From Flavobacteriales bacterium (GTDB lineage Bacteria > Bacteroidota > Bacteroidia > Flavobacteriales_D > Sanyastnellaceae), in assembly GCA_018402085.1 (NCBI GenBank), contig JAGYJM010000002.1, forward strand, positions 1,240,001 through 1,304,000: 64,000 bases of DNA, written 5' to 3'. The notes beneath the pieces were generated by a model, which did not search any database, was not told the DNA's origin, and saw only the letters and a program-made list of their open reading frames with translations. The stretch's first letter is position 1, and every line of letters starts with the position of its first letter. Shown piece by piece: positions 27,696-64,000 of this stretch. Position numbers and translations under genes: made by a program.

Positions 27696-30600
27696 TTACC
27701 GTCCGAGTACTACCTTCTTTCGTGTGCCTTGTTGACCATTGGTGAGTTCAACAATATAGACACCGGTGCTGAGTCCTTCTAGCAAAGTAACTTCGCGTCT
27801 TTCAGAACCTGCAGGCAGATTAAACGAATGCACACATCGTCCGCTGATGTCGTAAATGTTCACCAAATGGTTACGGTCGAGCTGTGGAGTCTGAATGGTG
27901 AGCTGAATGCCGGAACTGAACACCTCGAAAGAATCTTGGGTTCTTCCGTTTACACTAACCGCTGATTCTTCTACGATGATTTCGAAGGATACCGTTTCAG
28001 TGCATTGCGCATTGTAAGCCGTTACCATGATGGTATAAACACCGGGCTCCGCAACCGCGTACTGCAGTTCACCCATGGTGTTGACCAGGTTGCCGTTGAC
28101 TGTCCAGTACCAACTTTCGGCATTGTCAGTGAAGGCTGAGGCCTGCAGCAATGCGGTTCCGTTCTCAAGCATCACCAGTTCGTTGTAGGCCACTTCAATT
28201 TCAACAGTTTCTTCATCGAAGAGGGAGTACGACTGCATACCGGTGTTGCAAACGGTGGTTACCCACGCTGTGTAAAAGCCAGGGTCGAGTCCACCTATCT
28301 CATAGTCTTGTGCCTGTCCTTCAAAACTATTGATGATGTTGTCGTCGCTGTCTACGAGCTCGATGCTGAAGTCGCCATTTCCGCTCATATCGAAAGAAAG
28401 TACACCTGTTGCGTCTTCATTACAAGAGGCTGGCGTTGTCACTACGGTGACATCAGGATTTGTTGGCTCTTGAACGATCAGCTCGAAAGTATGCAACGGA
28501 CACACGCCCGCTTCATCGGTTACGGTGAGCTCGAAGTCACCTGCACCAATGCCGTTGATGATTTGTTGGTTGGTCAGCAAACCGTCAAAGAGGATGGCAT
28601 CGTTGACATCAGTGAGCACAGCGTTAAGCGGGAATACAGAGACGTTGAGTTCAATGGATCCGTTTAGGTCGCCTTCACATTCGGGTGAGGTCGTGGCTGC
28701 AGCAATAGGGTAGGCGTGGTGCAGCATGAGTCGGATATCGTTGAAAGTCTCCTCGAATGTCAGTTCAATGCTTTCTCCTTCTTCAACAGGGTAGAAATCT
28801 CCGGTAAAAAGATCTTCGATGAAAAGACAGCTGAGGTCATCTAAGTTCTGCACTGTTTCAACTGTGAAGGTCACGGTTCCCGGCTCATTGATTTCAAAGT
28901 AGATGCCTGCAGAAGTCTCTGCGCCATTATGAGGGCGACGGTCTACCACAAGCAATTCACCGGTAGAGGCTGTCATAGACATTTCCGGTGCCGCGTTGTT
29001 CATACTTCCGAGGTGCACAGCATCTCGGCCGGGTTCAAAAGCAGCTTGAGCATCCTCTTCGAAGACCAGATGGCTCTCCTGGTAGGTGTTGCCCTGGCTC
29101 AGGCTGAAGGTAATTAATTGATGGTCACCATTTGAACGTTCGAACGAAGTGCCGTTGTCAGACTTGTGGCTCTCCTGCCAAAGTAAAGATGATGGAGTGG
29201 CTATCGTTTGCACCCAGAAACTTTGACTGGAAGCGATGTATCGATTGCCACTTCCAATGCCCAGGTCTGCCGTATAGGTCAGGTAAGCTCCTGATTCGGC
29301 ATCGTATATATAGTAGGTGTCGCCAATATTGGTGGATGCGTCATGCAGTGCCTCGAAATCAATTTCTGAAGGATAAATGTTACTGACCAATTCCCATCCG
29401 TCGTTGGCAGCAACACCAGAGTTGTTATAATTCAGATTGACGGTAACCTCGCCTTGTTGAATCGATCCTGTGACATCAATGTTTTGGCTGGTTGCAGTCA
29501 TGTAGACCATATACCCTCGCTGATGGTCAAGGGCATCTGTCATATCTGCTGCTCCATCCCAGCCATCATTAAGCAAACCAGTGACCGTTTCGTCGTAAAA
29601 TTGAACGTTGTTGAGTTCATAGTTCGGGAACTGCGACCCGGTGAAACCGGTGGTGAAGATGTCGTCATCCCATGCCGCAAGGGTATTGCCGGGCAGCGCA
29701 TTGCCGAGGTTTACCCAGTTCTGAATTCCCGAAGGAATGTAGCGCTGCAGAGTTACTTGACCGCTGAAGGTAGACCCACTTGAGATTTGTCCGATAGACG
29801 CAGTGCGGCTCGCGGTTGAGAGCAAGGTGAGCGTATTTGCGCCCATATTGACATCTCCGTCGTCAAGAATGAGGCGTCCGGTCAGGGATAGGTTACTATT
29901 AACGGATAATCCTGCTGCATTATTCAATGTGATGTCGTTAAGGCTGGCGTCGCTACTTAGGTCTTGAGCCGCAGCACCATTGAATAAGAAACCACCCTCT
30001 GTATCTTCGACCACACCGCCGCTGACGGTCATATCTCCGCGGACTTCAATGGTATGATCTGCGCCGAATTGCAGGTTGCCTGCGCCGTTGGCATCTTCTA
30101 CGGTAAGGTCATCGCAAACAAACCCTGCATCAACGGTCACCGTTTGTCCGTTGCGCACCACAAACGAAGACGCCGCACCGAAGACTGCAGACAGTCCTGT
30201 GCCGCTTGCCGGATCAGGGTTCCAGATAGCTCCGGAGCTGTTTCCGCTAGCCACCGAGTACCAGACGTAGGTACAGGAGCCGTCGTCAGTTGTTGCAGTA
30301 GCATCATAATTTGTTGCATTCGAATTGGTACAACCGGGAATGTCGGCCGTAACGCAGAAGCTTTCTGTTACAGATGAGCCGAAATCAGGGCTCGCCATTT
30401 GAACAAGCACGGTTCCATTCTCATTCGTCACAGAGTAGTTGCCATCTGTGGTGCACTCTTGGTATTGCGAACCAAACATACCATCACCAAAGGTATCTTC
30501 CACTACCCATTCGTAGCACCCTACAGGTAGGCAGTATGTCCAGGTGTTGGTTGACTCATTTGCCAGTGTCCCTGAATTGATAAAGTCAATCAGATTGCCA

Positions 30601-46773: not shown

Positions 46774-49349
46774 TGTTCTACCACAATTCGTTTGGTTAGG
46801 GTAAAGTCCACTCCATGCGCTTGCAGCAGGTAAATACCTGCTGGGAGTGAGTGAACAGGGAGCCTGACAAATTCTTTATTGGCTGGTATTGCAAACTCCA
46901 TGATAAGCTGACCCGAAGCATCTGTAAGGTGCAGATACTGAATAGCATCACTTGTAAGCTGCACCGTTAGCTGCTCAAGAGCTGGAATGGGGAATACTGC
47001 CCACCGTGAGTCACTATTTTCTGTCACGAAGACAATACTTTCAACCACCACGGCATGGGTGTGTATGCAGTTGTTCGCATCAATGATAAAGGCATTGTAA
47101 ACCCCCGGTGCCTCTGCTTCAAAGCTGAAAGTGTCAGAAGTGAACCCTTCCGGACCGTTCCAGGATACCTGATAAGGGGCTGTACCTCCTTCAACAAATA
47201 GTTCAACGGTGGTGCTTTCTTCACCAGGCTGTACGGAAGATGCCGCCAATAAAGGATCAGGCACGGCTATGTTGAATGCACCGCTGACCTGGCATCCTTC
47301 GCTGTCTACAATCGTGTATGCGTAGTTACCTGCACTAAGTTCATTGGGGTTGTTACCCTCCAGGTCGAGCGCATAGGGCGGATTTCCGTTCATAATGGTA
47401 TAAACGAAACTGCCCGCTTCACCGGCGCAAGCGGCATCGTTCACTTCTTCGACCACTTCAAGGGCAGGGGTATCAGGAACCACTATTTCAAAAGCAGCAG
47501 CGCAACCAATTTCATCTTCGATCAATAAGTTGTAGAAGCCAGGCGATACCCCGTACACCATAGGTTCAGCCATTTCACCGTCAAGCAGGATCTGATAAGC
47601 CTGGTCATCCGGTATGGCAATGGCAATCAGTCCGTCTTCGCCACCGTGACATGTAGGGCCTTCTGCAATCCACGTGGCGGTGGGGGCTGGCTGTTGGTCA
47701 ACCTCAAATGTTTCACTCTCAAAAGGAAGCCCGATTTGTGTAAAGGCGTTGTAGCTGTAACTACCTGGTGTATTTACCCATAGACTGTTTCCTGTGGCTC
47801 CGTTGTTCCAGGTCACATTCATCCCGGAAGGCGCCGTCAGCAGCAGAGAATCACCTCCGCAGAATGCATTGGCTTCTGCCTGAACCATCCCTGTCAGGCT
47901 CATACCTTCAGTGAGCATGTGAAGAGCATCTGCCGGCAGATCATAAAGCTTATCAACATGTCCGCTGGGCCATTCAATGATCAACGAGTCAACTTCAGTT
48001 GCAGTGCCTAAGCCGAAAATCTCGTATTGCGAGTTTTGTGTCATATAGCCTTCACCGCAATGGGTGTAACGAAGTAGGTGCATATCATTGGCATAAACGT
48101 TAAGCCACGCACCAATACCGTCGCTATTTGAAACCACGCCTTCAAGACCTACTTTGATGTAGTGGTTCTCGTTGGGTACACATTGAAATAGTCTTGAGAT
48201 GTGGGGCCATTCCTGCACGATAAAGAGGTCAGCAAATCCGTCGTTGTTAAAGTCGCCACTCGCACTTGAGTTTGATTTGCCCTGATCGATTTCAAAGCCA
48301 TTATTGAAGTAATTCGCAGTAAAGGTGCCATCCTGGTTGTTATAGAAGAAGCGGTTCTGGCCCGGTTCGTTCCAGAAAGGGGAGCAGCAGACATGGAGGT
48401 CTTCCCAGCCGTCATTATCCGCATCGATCCATTGCGCACTCCAACTGTGGTCGTTCACCTGAACTCCGAGGTCAGTAGCGATCTCATCAAAAGTGCCGGA
48501 ATCCTTATTGTAGTTGTGTAGGAGATTGCCTGTTGGATTATTCGAAACATAAATATCGAGGTCACCGTCATGGTCATAATCGGCACAACTGTTGTTCATT
48601 GAAAAGATGTAGTAGTCAAGACCGAGCTCAATGGTCACATCTGACCAGGTGCCGTCTCCGTTGTTACGGTACATATTGTCAGAAGCCGGCAGGCGGTCAT
48701 TAATGACAAACAGATCAGGCCATAAATCGTGGTCGTAATCAATGAATGCCGGCTGGAAAGACCACACACTTCCATTGTCGATACCTAAATCTGAAGCTCG
48801 CTCGGTGAAGGTGCCGTCACCGTCATTTTCGAAATAGAAATTTGTTACACCATCAGCATTGTAATTGCAGAGGTATAAATCCAGATCTCCGTCGCGATCA
48901 GGGTCGCCCCAAGCCTGCCCGTAGGTTAAATAATTTGTATTGTTAGGCAATCCTGCGAAACTGGTATAATTCGTCATCGTCAAGAGGTTGCCTTCATTCC
49001 GAAGAAGTGTCCACGGACCACCGTAGCGGGTGATGAAGAGGTCAGCGTCGCCGTCGTTGTCATAATCGACCCAAACGACTGACTTCGCCTCATGTTGGTT
49101 GGTAGTCAGCGAAATAGGAGGTGCGAAGGTGCCGCCTTCATTGAGGTATAAACGAATAGGCATACCTGCCGTGGCCACGGTGATATCATCCCAGCCGTCT
49201 TTGTTGACGTCGTAAAAACTGACACCACCGCCATATTCGATACCCATGTATTGGTATACGATGCCGACTTCAGACGCGACCTCAGTGTAAGATTGCGCAT
49301 ACATAAAGCACGGCAGACACTGCAAAACAATCAGCGCAAGCCTTCTCAT
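46770..49349 (-). CDS. T9SS-exported FG-GAP/ASPIC-UnbV repeat protein (copy A)
   Basis: 859 residues, almost the length of the next gene and with the same plan: signal peptide, FG-GAP units (YDVNKDGWDDITV, VDYDNDGDADLFI, GDPDRDGDLDLYL, ADYDHDGDLDIYV), ASPIC domain (GIGAWLNVYANDMHLLRYTHCG, SLIIEWPSGHVDKLYDLP), SprB-like repeats (GPTCHGGEDGLIAIA) and a type A sorting domain (LHLTDASGQLIMEF, LPAGIYLLQAHG, KRIVVEQ). Clearly a tandem duplicate with copy B. Contains no palindromic element. Confidence 0.87.
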   Translation of the reverse strand: MRRLALIVLQCLPCFMYAQSYTEVASEVGIVYQYMGIEYGGGVSFYDVNKDGWDDITVATAGMPIRLYLNEGGTFAPPISLTTNQHEAKSVVWVDYDNDGDADLFITRYGGPWTLLRNEGNLLTMTNYTSFAGLPNNTNYLTYGQAWGDPDRDGDLDLYLCNYNADGVTNFYFENDGDGTFTERASDLGIDNGSVWSFQPAFIDYDHDLWPDLFVINDRLPASDNMYRNNGDGTWSDVTIELGLDYYIFSMNNSCADYDHDGDLDIYVSNNPTGNLLHNYNKDSGTFDEIATDLGVQVNDHSWSAQWIDADNDGWEDLHVCCSPFWNEPGQNRFFYNNQDGTFTANYFNNGFEIDQGKSNSSASGDFNNDGFADLFIVQEWPHISRLFQCVPNENHYIKVGLEGVVSNSDGIGAWLNVYANDMHLLRYTHCGEGYMTQNSQYEIFGLGTATEVDSLIIEWPSGHVDKLYDLPADALHMLTEGMSLTGMVQAEANAFCGGDSLLLTAPSGMNVTWNNGATGNSLWVNTPGSYSYNAFTQIGLPFESETFEVDQQPAPTATWIAEGPTCHGGEDGLIAIAIPDDQAYQILLDGEMAEPMVYGVSPGFYNLLIEDEIGCAAAFEIVVPDTPALEVVEEVNDAACAGEAGSFVYTIMNGNPPYALDLEGNNPNELSAGNYAYTIVDSEGCQVSGAFNIAVPDPLLAASSVQPGEESTTVELFVEGGTAPYQVSWNGPEGFTSDTFSFEAEAPGVYNAFIIDANNCIHTHAVVVESIVFVTENSDSRWAVFPIPALEQLTVQLTSDAIQYLHLTDASGQLIMEFAIPANKEFVRLPVHSLPAGIYLLQAHGVDFTLTKRIVVEQ

Positions 49350-54334: not shown

Positions 54335-60816
<6,482 letters not shown>

Positions 60817-60890
60817 ATTTGTTTCGATGAATGTCAGGTAATGGTATGAAAGCCTAACAATTAGTTTACGCTAAATAGCTTGAAGCTTCG

Positions 60891-60898
60891 TATGTTTG
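60891..60898 (+). promoter_or_regulatory. -7 box TATGTTTG for the glycine-rich protein
   Basis: Exact TAnnTTTG, 23 bases before the ATG at 60922; supports that start over upstream TTG and ATG codons. Confidence 0.5.
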
Positions 60899-60921
60899 GC
60901 TACGCAATAACCTTTACCAAC

Positions 60922-63186
60922 ATGCTTAAAGCTTTACTTTCTTGCGCAGCATTCGCAATCGTTTTCATCTCTTCAGCACAACAAAGCTGTTCGCTGATCT
61001 ATGCTACTCCCACAGGTACAGGCTTGGAGGGCACCCTTGAGGCTCCGGCGAACCTGCTTCAGGCAATTGATATTCACCTTAATGATCCCTCACGCGATCT
61101 GATCTACCTCCTTGAAGGAAACCACAACCTCTATCAAACACTTGAGGTGCCTACCGGACTGACCATAGAAGGGGGATATTTTAACTCCGGTAATGGCTGG
61201 GTCAAAAACAGTGACGCCCTGACCATTCTCAATATCAATCCGCCCGTTCAGGATGTAAATGGTACCGGACAAATTCTGGGTGTATCCATTGACAACACCG
61301 ATAATGTAGCCCTCCGTGACCTTGAAATCCGCGTGGCGATTGGCGTCAACCCAGGGAACTTTAACACCAACGGCGTGAGCATCACGGGCGTGCGCGCCGC
61401 GAACTCCAGCAACTACACCCTCGAACGTGTAACCATCGTCACCGGAGTTGCCGGCAACGGTATTGCGGGCTCAAACGGTTCATCAGGTGGAAATGGCGCT
61501 ATCGGTGAAACTGGTCAGCAAGGTTGTAACGACTGTGGCGACGGCGCCTTCGGAGGTAACGGCGGTGCCGGTGGCAACGCAGGCGGTGCCGGTGGTCGCG
61601 GTGGTTATGGCAATACTACAGGTGATACCGGCAACCCTGGTGGAGGTGCGAATGGAGGTTCCGGCGGTGGCGGCGGATCAGGTGACAATAGCACCTGTAT
61701 TTTCGGCTGCAGTGAAGCCGATGCCGGTAATCCCGGAGCGAACGGCTCTGACGGTGCCAACGGTGCCGGAGGTGGCGGTGGATTCACCGACTTTGTGAAT
61801 GGATGGTTCATCCCGATTGCCGGACAAAACGGCGACAACGGCCAGGCCGGCGGCGGCGGCGGTGGTGGTGGCGGTGGCGGCGGCTCTGCCTGTTGCCTTG
61901 ACGATCGCGGTGCCGGTGGCGGCGGCGGCGGCGGTGGCGGCTTCGGTGGCCTCGGCGGCACTGGCGGTGGCACCGGCGGTAGCTCAATCGCTTTCCTCAC
62001 ATGGAACAACAACAATGGTGGCCTACTGCGCGATGTTAATCTTAATCCCGGCGATGCCGGACTTGGCGCTGCAGGCGGACAAGGTGGTGCAGGTGGTATC
62101 GGAGGCGACGGTGGTCCCGGAGGTACAGGTCTCGATGAAGGCGGCGACGGTGGCCCCGGTGGAACCGGCGGTACAGGCGGAGCTGGTGGCCAGGGCGGTG
62201 CAGGCAGCAATGGTGATGTACACCAGCTCTTCGAAAATGGCACACCTGTCTCGGTTCAAACCACAGGCTGGCCTTTCAACGAAACTTACACTGCCAATAC
62301 CTTCTACGGCTGTACCAATAGTGCCATCACCCTTACCAAGAGCACAGGTAACTGGGATTTCGACGCAATGGGCACGGCGGTCATCAATGATCTACTGCCA
62401 AATGCCTCCAGCTACAGCGCAGTAGATAATACGGTAGAGGTCTCGTACACGCTCCTCGGCGAGAAAGACCTCGTGACTGAGCTCAGCACCCTCTCGAACT
62501 TCTTCGAGATTCGTGAAAACAGACCACTCCCAACGATCGAGGCCATTCCGGATACCCTCTGCGCGGAAGAGTTGCTCAACCTGACCACCAATGAAGTAGG
62601 GGTGGCTTATGACTGGACCATCCTCAGCGAAGCCGGTGATGAAATCGCCTCGCGAACAGGAGCAAGTCCGGCACCCGTAGAACTGACCAACTCTGGAAAA
62701 TACTATGTGAAACTTCAGGTGCGCGATGCCTGCTGCGGCTGGTCAGTACCGGTGTACGACTCAACCGTTGTTCGCTTGCCGATTGAAACACTCAACGCCA
62801 TTCAGATCTGCGAAACGGATTCTGTATTCCTCGAAGGAGCATGGCAAAACGAAGAAGGCATCTACGTGGATGTTCTGACCACGGTCAATGGCTGTGACAG
62901 CATCGCAACCAATGTACTCTTCATAGGCCAGTGCGTTGACTTTGGATGTACAGATCCTGCAGCAATCAACTACAACCCACTCGCTCTTGAAGACGATGGC
63001 TCTTGCATCTTCGTGAACCAGGAAAACTTCTGCGGGCCGGGCACCATATTCGATCCGGAGCTCGGTCAATGCGTTGTCGCCTGCCCGGGTGATCTCGATA
63101 ATAATGGCGTTATACAAACAGGAGATCTTTTGGTATTCTTATCTGTTTTCTCACTAACTTGCGAAGAGGCTTACGGAAACGATTAA
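60922..63186 (+). CDS. exported glycine-rich protein with dockerin-like C-terminus
   Basis: 754 residues from the ATG at 60922, which gives a clean signal peptide. Residues 20-165 resemble a right-handed beta-helix start (IEGGYFNSGNGW, NVALRDLEIRV). Residues about 180-435 are Gly-rich, with GGNGGAGGNAGGAGG-type runs broken by Cys-rich inserts. Then a Cys-containing domain, a GCTDPAAINYNPLALEDDGSC motif, and the end CPGDLDNNGVIQTGDLLVFLS, which looks like one dockerin-type Ca loop. No type A sorting domain is visible. Probably extracellular matrix or surface material. Confidence 0.82.
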   Translation: MLKALLSCAAFAIVFISSAQQSCSLIYATPTGTGLEGTLEAPANLLQAIDIHLNDPSRDLIYLLEGNHNLYQTLEVPTGLTIEGGYFNSGNGWVKNSDALTILNINPPVQDVNGTGQILGVSIDNTDNVALRDLEIRVAIGVNPGNFNTNGVSITGVRAANSSNYTLERVTIVTGVAGNGIAGSNGSSGGNGAIGETGQQGCNDCGDGAFGGNGGAGGNAGGAGGRGGYGNTTGDTGNPGGGANGGSGGGGGSGDNSTCIFGCSEADAGNPGANGSDGANGAGGGGGFTDFVNGWFIPIAGQNGDNGQAGGGGGGGGGGGGSACCLDDRGAGGGGGGGGGFGGLGGTGGGTGGSSIAFLTWNNNNGGLLRDVNLNPGDAGLGAAGGQGGAGGIGGDGGPGGTGLDEGGDGGPGGTGGTGGAGGQGGAGSNGDVHQLFENGTPVSVQTTGWPFNETYTANTFYGCTNSAITLTKSTGNWDFDAMGTAVINDLLPNASSYSAVDNTVEVSYTLLGEKDLVTELSTLSNFFEIRENRPLPTIEAIPDTLCAEELLNLTTNEVGVAYDWTILSEAGDEIASRTGASPAPVELTNSGKYYVKLQVRDACCGWSVPVYDSTVVRLPIETLNAIQICETDSVFLEGAWQNEEGIYVDVLTTVNGCDSIATNVLFIGQCVDFGCTDPAAINYNPLALEDDGSCIFVNQENFCGPGTIFDPELGQCVVACPGDLDNNGVIQTGDLLVFLSVFSLTCEEAYGND

Positions 63187-63218
63187 TAAGCTCCTTGACC
63201 TTACCCAAAATACGACCG

Positions 63219-63253
63219 GCCCTCTTGCCTCAAGCAAGAGGGCTTCTCGTTTT
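63219..63253 (+). terminator. rho-independent terminator after the glycine-rich protein
   Basis: 10-bp stem GCCCTCTTGC/GCAAGAGGGC with loop CTCAA, followed by a T-rich stretch TTCTCGTTTT. It lies 32 bp beyond the stop at 63186. Confidence 0.85.
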
Positions 63254-63273
63254 CAGTACCAGACCATTTTCAA

Positions 63274-63858
63274 ATGCCGCGCTACTTCGCCTTTTATAAA
63301 CCGTACGGAATCTTGTCGCAGTTCAGCGACGAAGGACAAAAGAAGGGGTGGGGCTCGGTCATTGATCTGCCGCCTAATGTCTACGGAGTCGGCAGACTTG
63401 ACGCTGATAGTGAAGGACTCTTGCTGATGACCGATGATAAATCGATCAACGAACGCCTGCTACATCCTTCTAATCGTCATTGGCGAACCTATCTCGTTCA
63501 GGTAGAAGGCGAGATCAGCGCAAAAGCGCTGGATGCGTTGAGAAGACCTATGTCGCTAAGATTTAAAAAGAAGAACCACCAAACCCTTCCCGCGAAAGTA
63601 GAATGGCTAACCGAAGAACCTGAACTTCCCGAGCGCAACCCGCCCGTCAGGTTCCGAAAATCTGTGCCAACATCCTGGATTCGCCTCTCCTTGCAGGAAG
63701 GCAAGAACCGTCAGGTTCGTAAAATGACGGCAGTAGTGGGTTTCCCCACGCTTCGACTGGTGCGGGAGTCCATCGAAGACCTGCAGATCGGTGAGCTCCA
63801 GCCCGGCGAGGTCAGAGAGTACGAGCAACAGAACTTTCTTCGGCTCTTAGATCTTTGA
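63274..63858 (+). CDS. 23S rRNA pseudouridine synthase, RsuA/RluE type
   Basis: 194 residues. GVGRLDADSEGLLLMTDD is the catalytic motif, with D43 the nucleophile; FAFYKPYGILSQF at the start and LQEGKNRQVRKMTAVVGFPTLRLVRES complete the core. There is no S4 domain, as in RluE, which converts U2457 of 23S rRNA; the exact target is inference. A palindromic element (63517-63535) encodes SAKALDA in the middle of the protein. Confidence 0.93.
   Translation: MPRYFAFYKPYGILSQFSDEGQKKGWGSVIDLPPNVYGVGRLDADSEGLLLMTDDKSINERLLHPSNRHWRTYLVQVEGEISAKALDALRRPMSLRFKKKNHQTLPAKVEWLTEEPELPERNPPVRFRKSVPTSWIRLSLQEGKNRQVRKMTAVVGFPTLRLVRESIEDLQIGELQPGEVREYEQQNFLRLLDL
63517..63535 (+). repeat. 19-bp hairpin-GGATG element, copy 21
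   Basis: Stem AGCGC, loop AAAA, GGATG on the plus strand; read as SAKALDA in the pseudouridine synthase. Confidence 0.85.
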
Positions 63859-63882
63859 TAGCCACGCTTCAGCCGCTTTCAG

Positions 63883-63890
63883 TAGCTTTG
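63883..63890 (+). promoter_or_regulatory. -7 box TAGCTTTG for the last partial gene
   Basis: Exact TAnnTTTG, five bases before the ATG at 63896. Confidence 0.5.
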
Positions 63891-63895
63891 CGCCA

Positions 63896-64000
63896 ATGCG
63901 TTTGATCATTTTACTCATCGGCTATCCACTGTTTTTAGTGTGGACCATCATCTCGGGCTTCACCGGGATGTTCATCGCTGCGGTGCTGCGGTCTCCACAA
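63896..64000 (+). CDS. N-terminal part of a membrane protein, cut by the window end
   Basis: 35 residues starting MRLIILLIGYPLFLVWTIIS, with one strongly hydrophobic segment, still open at the window end. The start is supported by a -7 box (63883-63890) five bases upstream. Family cannot be told from so little. Confidence 0.5.
   Translation, partial: MRLIILLIGYPLFLVWTIISGFTGMFIAAVLRSPQ

Follow-up and report, generated by a model that had tools for sequence, protein, structure and literature searches.

A 64,000-nucleotide stretch of DNA (hereafter, the window) encodes an exported, glycine-rich protein whose short C-terminal end recurs across the source genome far beyond chance. This end, hereafter referred to as the tail, is a Cys-bracketed EF loop of ~28 residues, and it closes 71 open reading frames (ORFs), most of which carry a predicted signal peptide. 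It probably serves as an address, so far unrecognised, by which proteins get to the cell surface or are kept there. Judging from sequence, we take it, with a probability of roughly 55%, to be a C-terminal module for sorting or anchoring that replaces the type A and type B signals of the T9SS, with the T9SS as its likeliest route. This reading rests on the shared terminal end, from the exclusion of type A and B signals, and from the exchange of the tail with T9SS signals among homologous proteins. The initial annotation had suggested either a new kind of matrix or adhesive protein or an unrecognised anchoring end, which other exported proteins would be expected to share. The shared end is indeed there, and what is new is the tail itself, found on enzymes and adhesin-like proteins alike, and not a kind of matrix protein. 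A literature search, at the level of titles and abstract openings, returned no description of such a tail.

The window protein lies on the + strand at 60922-63186 and counts 754 residues from its ATG at 60922, with a TTG in frame 5′ of this start at 60880. It opens with a Sec signal peptide (residues 1-19; 60922..60978), assigned from the sequence with a cut site set by eye and a crude hydrophobic test with an internal control, and in this it shares the N-terminal feature of T9SS cargo. The subsequent N-terminal domain (residues 20-185; 60979..61476) had been described as beta-helix-like, which is a likeness by eye only and was not confirmed, as neither Pfam nor NCBIfam gave a match to the domain and PDB gave none at E ≤ 0.01. 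Behind it lie a Gly-rich block (residues 186-455; 61477..62286), a GCTNSxI segment with an Ig/PKD-like region (residues 456-627; 62287..62802), where Ig_7 matched below threshold at residues 537-604, and a Cys-containing segment of the form CETD...GCDS (residues 628-672; 62803..62937; from sequence). These are followed by a GCTDPAAINYN...DDGSC unit (residues 673-697; 62938..63012), in which the motif GCTDPAAINYN, correctly spotted earlier, occupies residues 675-685, and by a linker of CGxGT type, CGPGTIFDPELGQC (residues 704-717; 63031..63072), resembling stretches in a number of other tail proteins. The proposed sorting or anchoring module is the Cys-bracketed single EF (dockerin-like) loop CPGDLDNNGVIQTGDLLVFLSVFSLTC (residues 721-747; 63082..63162), after which seven more residues, EEAYGND, extend past the last Cys (63163..63183). 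The sub-threshold Ig_7 match (E 0.026) was all that Pfam gave for the full protein, and a Pfam scan of the last 150 residues gave CBM_14 on the linker, again below threshold (E 0.043). NCBIfam returned no match to the protein at E ≤ 1, TIGR04183 and TIGR04131 included. AlphaFold, run on single sequences, gave only poor models (mean pLDDT 35.2 and 38.6). The neighboring ORFs, named by eye, are flavin oxidoreductase-like upstream and pseudouridine-synthase-like downstream.

The Gly-rich block, noted earlier as about 250 residues with Cys breaks, is present as described: Gly accounts for 117 of its 270 residues (43-44%), with GGX runs, and Cys interrupts it at residues 202, 205, 259, 263, 324, and 325. 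Between residues 197 and 452, Gly recurs at every third residue (lag 3, 81 versus 48.2 in shuffles, z 8.4; lag 6, z 4.4). The GGX richness and the period of three resemble PE_PGRS and other polyglycine-rich proteins, and one could picture a slippery, length-variable repeat of the PE_PGRS or silk type to which the C-terminal motif is incidental. The PGRS block of PE_PGRS proteins is described as varying in size (PMC7550000), whereas the block studied here measures 270, 271, and 271 amino acids in three orthologs (not strains of one species) at 57-63% identity, with its Cys pairs kept. On this constant length we rejected a PE_PGRS or silk-like slippery repeat, and since the tail is moreover common to proteins across the whole genome, we regard the combination of such a repeat with an incidental end as highly improbable. 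In addition, the window protein has no PE domain (Pfam at E ≤ 1 gave Ig_7 only), and TRF found no DNA tandem repeat scoring 50 or more in 60000-64000. The constant length and conserved Cys pairs suggest that the block is no slippery repeat but folds as a domain, possibly a polyglycine-II bundle.

Searching the 3.78-Mb source genome with the 44 C-terminal residues gave 86 matches at E ≤ 1, and a profile built from 26 tails gave at least 92 matches (150 of 166 candidates scored), distributed over 74 ORFs. In 71 of these ORFs the match is terminal, ending at most 11 residues from the stop, and the remaining three (L088, L089, and L103) have an internal or N-terminal match. L089 and L103 carry an EF-type loop near the N-terminus, behind the signal peptide, and L088 has an internal tail-like unit followed by GCTD-type units and a C-terminal stretch of ~200 residues. 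Two tandem matches occur in 18 of the 74 ORFs; by profile, 53 of the 71 terminal tails are single-loop, as is that of the window protein. Six positions are invariant in the 26 aligned tails (C1, D4, D15, L17, L20, and C27), where D4 and D15 correspond to EF-loop positions 1 and 12, while EF-loop positions 3 and 5 are mostly Asp/Asn by eye. The tails accordingly carry the dockerin ligand pattern at positions 1, 3, 5, and 12, and a calcium site is predicted from it. The last Cys stands 0-2 residues from the end in 64 of 71 tail proteins, and exactly one residue from it in 52. The window protein, with its seven residues past the last Cys, departs from most members, which speaks against a sorting role, and its G008 ortholog likewise has seven residues there.

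The proteins to which the tail is attached are diverse. Among ten tail proteins that we chose for a Pfam scan, passengers included subtilase, PAD_porph deiminase, GSDH, PETase-like hydrolase, Trypsin_2, Amidase_2, copper-binding, SpoIID, GH18, and M36 domains, and adhesin-like proteins also carry the tail. By our own pattern, 50 of 71 tail proteins have a GCTDPAAINYN...DDGSC-type unit ahead of the tail, and none of the 25 Pfam families shown (of 33 matching the 71 tails) obviously accounts for it. By the same kind of pattern, GCTDxxAxNYxxxAxxDDGSC-type units reach up to 30 copies per ORF (L093).

Signal peptides were scored by a crude hydrophobic test, and by this measure 62 of the 71 tail proteins have an N-terminus in frame (L062 and L075 among them being unconvincing), compared to 8 of 1,257 internal windows in the control. 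A stricter test of the start, with a cut-site pattern, was passed by 55 of 71. L041 fails the hydrophobic test, yet its signal peptide is plausible by eye. Ten tail ORFs lack a convincing start (L040, L043, L045, L047, L050, L051, L092, L062, L075, and L090); at the first seven of these, an upstream ORF that is not continuous with the tail ORF opens with a signal peptide, pointing to a broken reading frame, whether in the gene itself or through the assembly. SprA of the source genome is likewise split, into two adjacent ORFs (1519 + 952 aa; C2:2716693-2723858), and is a single 2468-aa ORF in two genomes of the source genus; taken with the seven apparently frame-broken tail ORFs, the split may reflect either indels of the assembly or true breaks.

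Known T9SS signals are abundant in the same genome, and they do not overlap with the tail. Type B gave 47 matches (40 above cut-off) and type A, for which 150 of 189 candidates were scored, at least 150 (143 above cut-off); none of the 74 tail ORFs holds any of them, so that a hidden type A or B signal in these ORFs was rejected within that scored set. Neither TIGR04183 nor TIGR04131 is among the 15 NCBIfam families matched by the 71 tails. The earlier view of the window protein's end as a single dockerin-like loop instead of a type A signal thus holds, and it extends to an unrecognised end that many proteins share. Two type A signals above cut-off lie elsewhere inside the window, at 27708-27905 and 46779-46997 (-) (C2:1267708 and C2:1286779).

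Like type A (TIGR04183) and type B (TIGR04131) signals, the tail sits at the extreme C-terminus of Sec-exported modular enzymes and adhesins, and it takes the same place in homologous proteins; it differs in being a Cys-bracketed EF loop of ~28 residues, as opposed to models of 72 or 85 positions. Its much smaller size compared to known T9SS signals, and the lack of a match to any T9SS model, count against a sorting role. A review names CTD types A, B, and C (PMC10202324), of which type B is described as needing PorP/SprF partners (PMC10202324, PMC12618676). Type C, represented by ChiA (NF033708), is like the tail in being C-terminal and in belonging to neither type A nor type B (PMC10202324), but NF033708 is not among the 15 families that the 71 tails matched. 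Short T9SS signals of 43-55 aa are described for Prevotella intermedia, with the known motifs kept (PMC11969387). As for the machinery, SprA was present in 99 of 100 genomes searched (98 above cut-off) and the PorV family in all 100 (2-8 matches each), and because both are universal or nearly so, their co-occurrence with the tail cannot discriminate. An expansion of the PorV family into a dedicated shuttle was dismissed, as its copy number, by eye, is not higher in the tail-rich genomes among these 100. Our searches brought up no receptor for the tail, which also weighs against a sorting role.

The tail and the T9SS signals replace one another at the ends of homologous proteins. Using the N-terminal domain of the window protein as query, we found homologs in its own genome and in five of the 100 genomes searched besides. 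The two from the same family, in G016 (58% identity) and G008 (45%), both end in the tail. In another family, all five readable homologs (three in G082, two in G088) end in TIGR04131 above cut-off. One more homolog, in G090, runs off its contig. The N-terminal domain is kept with either end; in the five type B homologs, all with a Gly-rich block, it is only 32-36% identical to that of the window protein, which weighs against the sorting reading. A similar exchange was seen for GSDH proteins, where we read 30 of 55 listed matches. Inside the family, 20 of the 21 loci read carry the tail (L157 by eye, where our pattern missed it) and one, L140, has a type A end above cut-off. Of the nine read outside the family, six have type A ends above cut-off, two (L159 and L160) have type A below cut-off (20.0 bits versus 23), and L163 ends in two dockerin-like loops without a terminal Cys, a case that speaks against the sorting reading.

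For the deiminases, 30 loci were read of about 90 listed matches, and 29 of the 30 are from the source family. Eight have the EF tail, which is complete in four and cut short by the edge of the fetched stretch in the other four (L173 assigned by eye); 20 end otherwise, 19 of these matching TIGR04183 at E ≤ 0.01, and two run off the stretch before the end could be read. The source genome itself holds two deiminase paralogs, 69% identical in the catalytic domain and 59.6% over 539 aa, of which one bears a doubled tail and the other a type A end. Finally, the M36 protein L101 scored 895 bits against the NCBIfam T9SS-dependent M36 model (cut-off 885) over positions 2-783 of 869, and the part of the model that it does not cover is the part matched by type A tails. 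The NCBIfam M36 families (T9SS-, rhombosortase-, and myxosortase-dependent) are similar in that one peptidase family bears lineage-specific sorting ends, with the difference that no processing enzyme is assigned to the EF tail. Exchange and mutual exclusion of the tail and type A/B signals hold for the cases given, of which GSDH, deiminase, and M36 were picked by us and are not a random sample of the 71 passengers, which limits the case for the sorting reading. The loss of the T9SS signal could equally mean that tail proteins are no longer exported.

That possibility is contained in a different account of the tail, in which the T9SS signal was lost, the proteins are periplasmic or released, and the tail is only a calcium-stabilised C-terminal cap that keeps the end stable or shields it. 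Proteins are commonly stabilised by EF loops and disulfides; a generic cap would, however, not be expected to sit strictly at the last residues of unrelated passengers, to trade places with T9SS signals across four protein families, or to exclude type A/B signals, and we consider this account unlikely.

The resemblance to dockerins raises another alternative, namely that the tail is a docking module: tail proteins would be exported by some route, and their EF loops would bind a cohesin-like surface receptor or scaffold, as in a cellulosome. The tail shares with type I (PF00404) and GC-type (NF041540) dockerins the C-terminal EF (F-hand) loop pattern. The 26-tail profile matches PDB type I dockerins with a best E of 1e-8, and at E ≤ 0.1, Dockerin_1 (PF00404) matches 30 of the 71 tails and dockerin_GC (NF041540) 15, with neither matching the window protein itself. 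The 18 ORFs with tandem loops also fit docking. On the other hand, dockerins have two tandem loops where most tails have one, and the tail loop is Cys-bracketed. The genome gave no match to Pfam cohesin (PF00963) at E ≤ 1, by which measure a cellulosome-type cohesin partner was rejected, although a partner of an unrecognised kind may exist, and docking leaves export unexplained. Overall, it appears to us a rather doubtful explanation.

For the sorting or anchoring module that we favor, the following route can be proposed. Sec would carry the tail protein across the inner membrane, as its signal peptide indicates; the EF loop, with its dockerin-type ligand pattern, would bind Ca2+; a disulfide between the two invariant cysteines may lock the loop; and the folded tail would be read at the outer membrane, whereby the protein is delivered to the surface or kept on it, most likely through the T9SS. 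In this way the Gly-rich domain of the window protein would be exposed outside the cell. A more specific version, which we put forward tentatively and at somewhat under even odds, would add the tail to the known classes of T9SS signal, as a mini-dockerin of ~28 residues that depends on Ca2+, is closed by a disulfide, evolved in one family, is read by the T9SS or by a dedicated outer-membrane receptor, and brings ~70 proteins to the surface. If the sorting reading is true, dozens of proteins are missing from the predicted surface proteome of the source genome and of the tail-rich genera of its family, since annotation relies on the established signals alone. A tail that is very small, calcium-dependent, and of quite another kind could then stand in for a T9SS-type address, which would narrow down the features that the outer-membrane machinery recognises, and the 28-residue tag would be handy for display.

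In our sample of Bacteroidota, the tail hardly occurs outside a single family, whose members we take to be Flavobacteriales-like. Scanning 100 genomes (the source and its relatives; at most 83 candidates scored per genome) with the profile at E ≤ 0.001, we found it in 60 of 61 genomes of the source family, 37 of them with at least 30 matches each and ten, of genera g4 and g20, belonging to the 61 with 0-2. In other families of the order, four of 39 genomes have the tail, with 1-2 matches each. A sample of the phylum at E ≤ 1e-7 (at most 24 candidates scored per genome) yielded, among the matches listed, three of 345 genomes: the source genome, a second from the same family, and a third from the same order. 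A scan of named genomes with six tails gave two loci, one in a Cryomorphaceae MAG and one in a Planctomycetia MAG, where the latter ORF ends, by eye, in two dockerin-like loops without Cys.

Within the source genome, Gly-rich stretches accompany the tail in 26 of the 74 ORFs, several as large repeats. A region of ~100 kb at C2:733364-832130 contains 14 tail ORFs (L040-L053), all with Gly-rich stretches. Several of them are built from large tandem repeats of ~350 aa each, and in L049, an identity of 95% or more to the sequence one repeat onward was found for 63% of the 300-nt windows.
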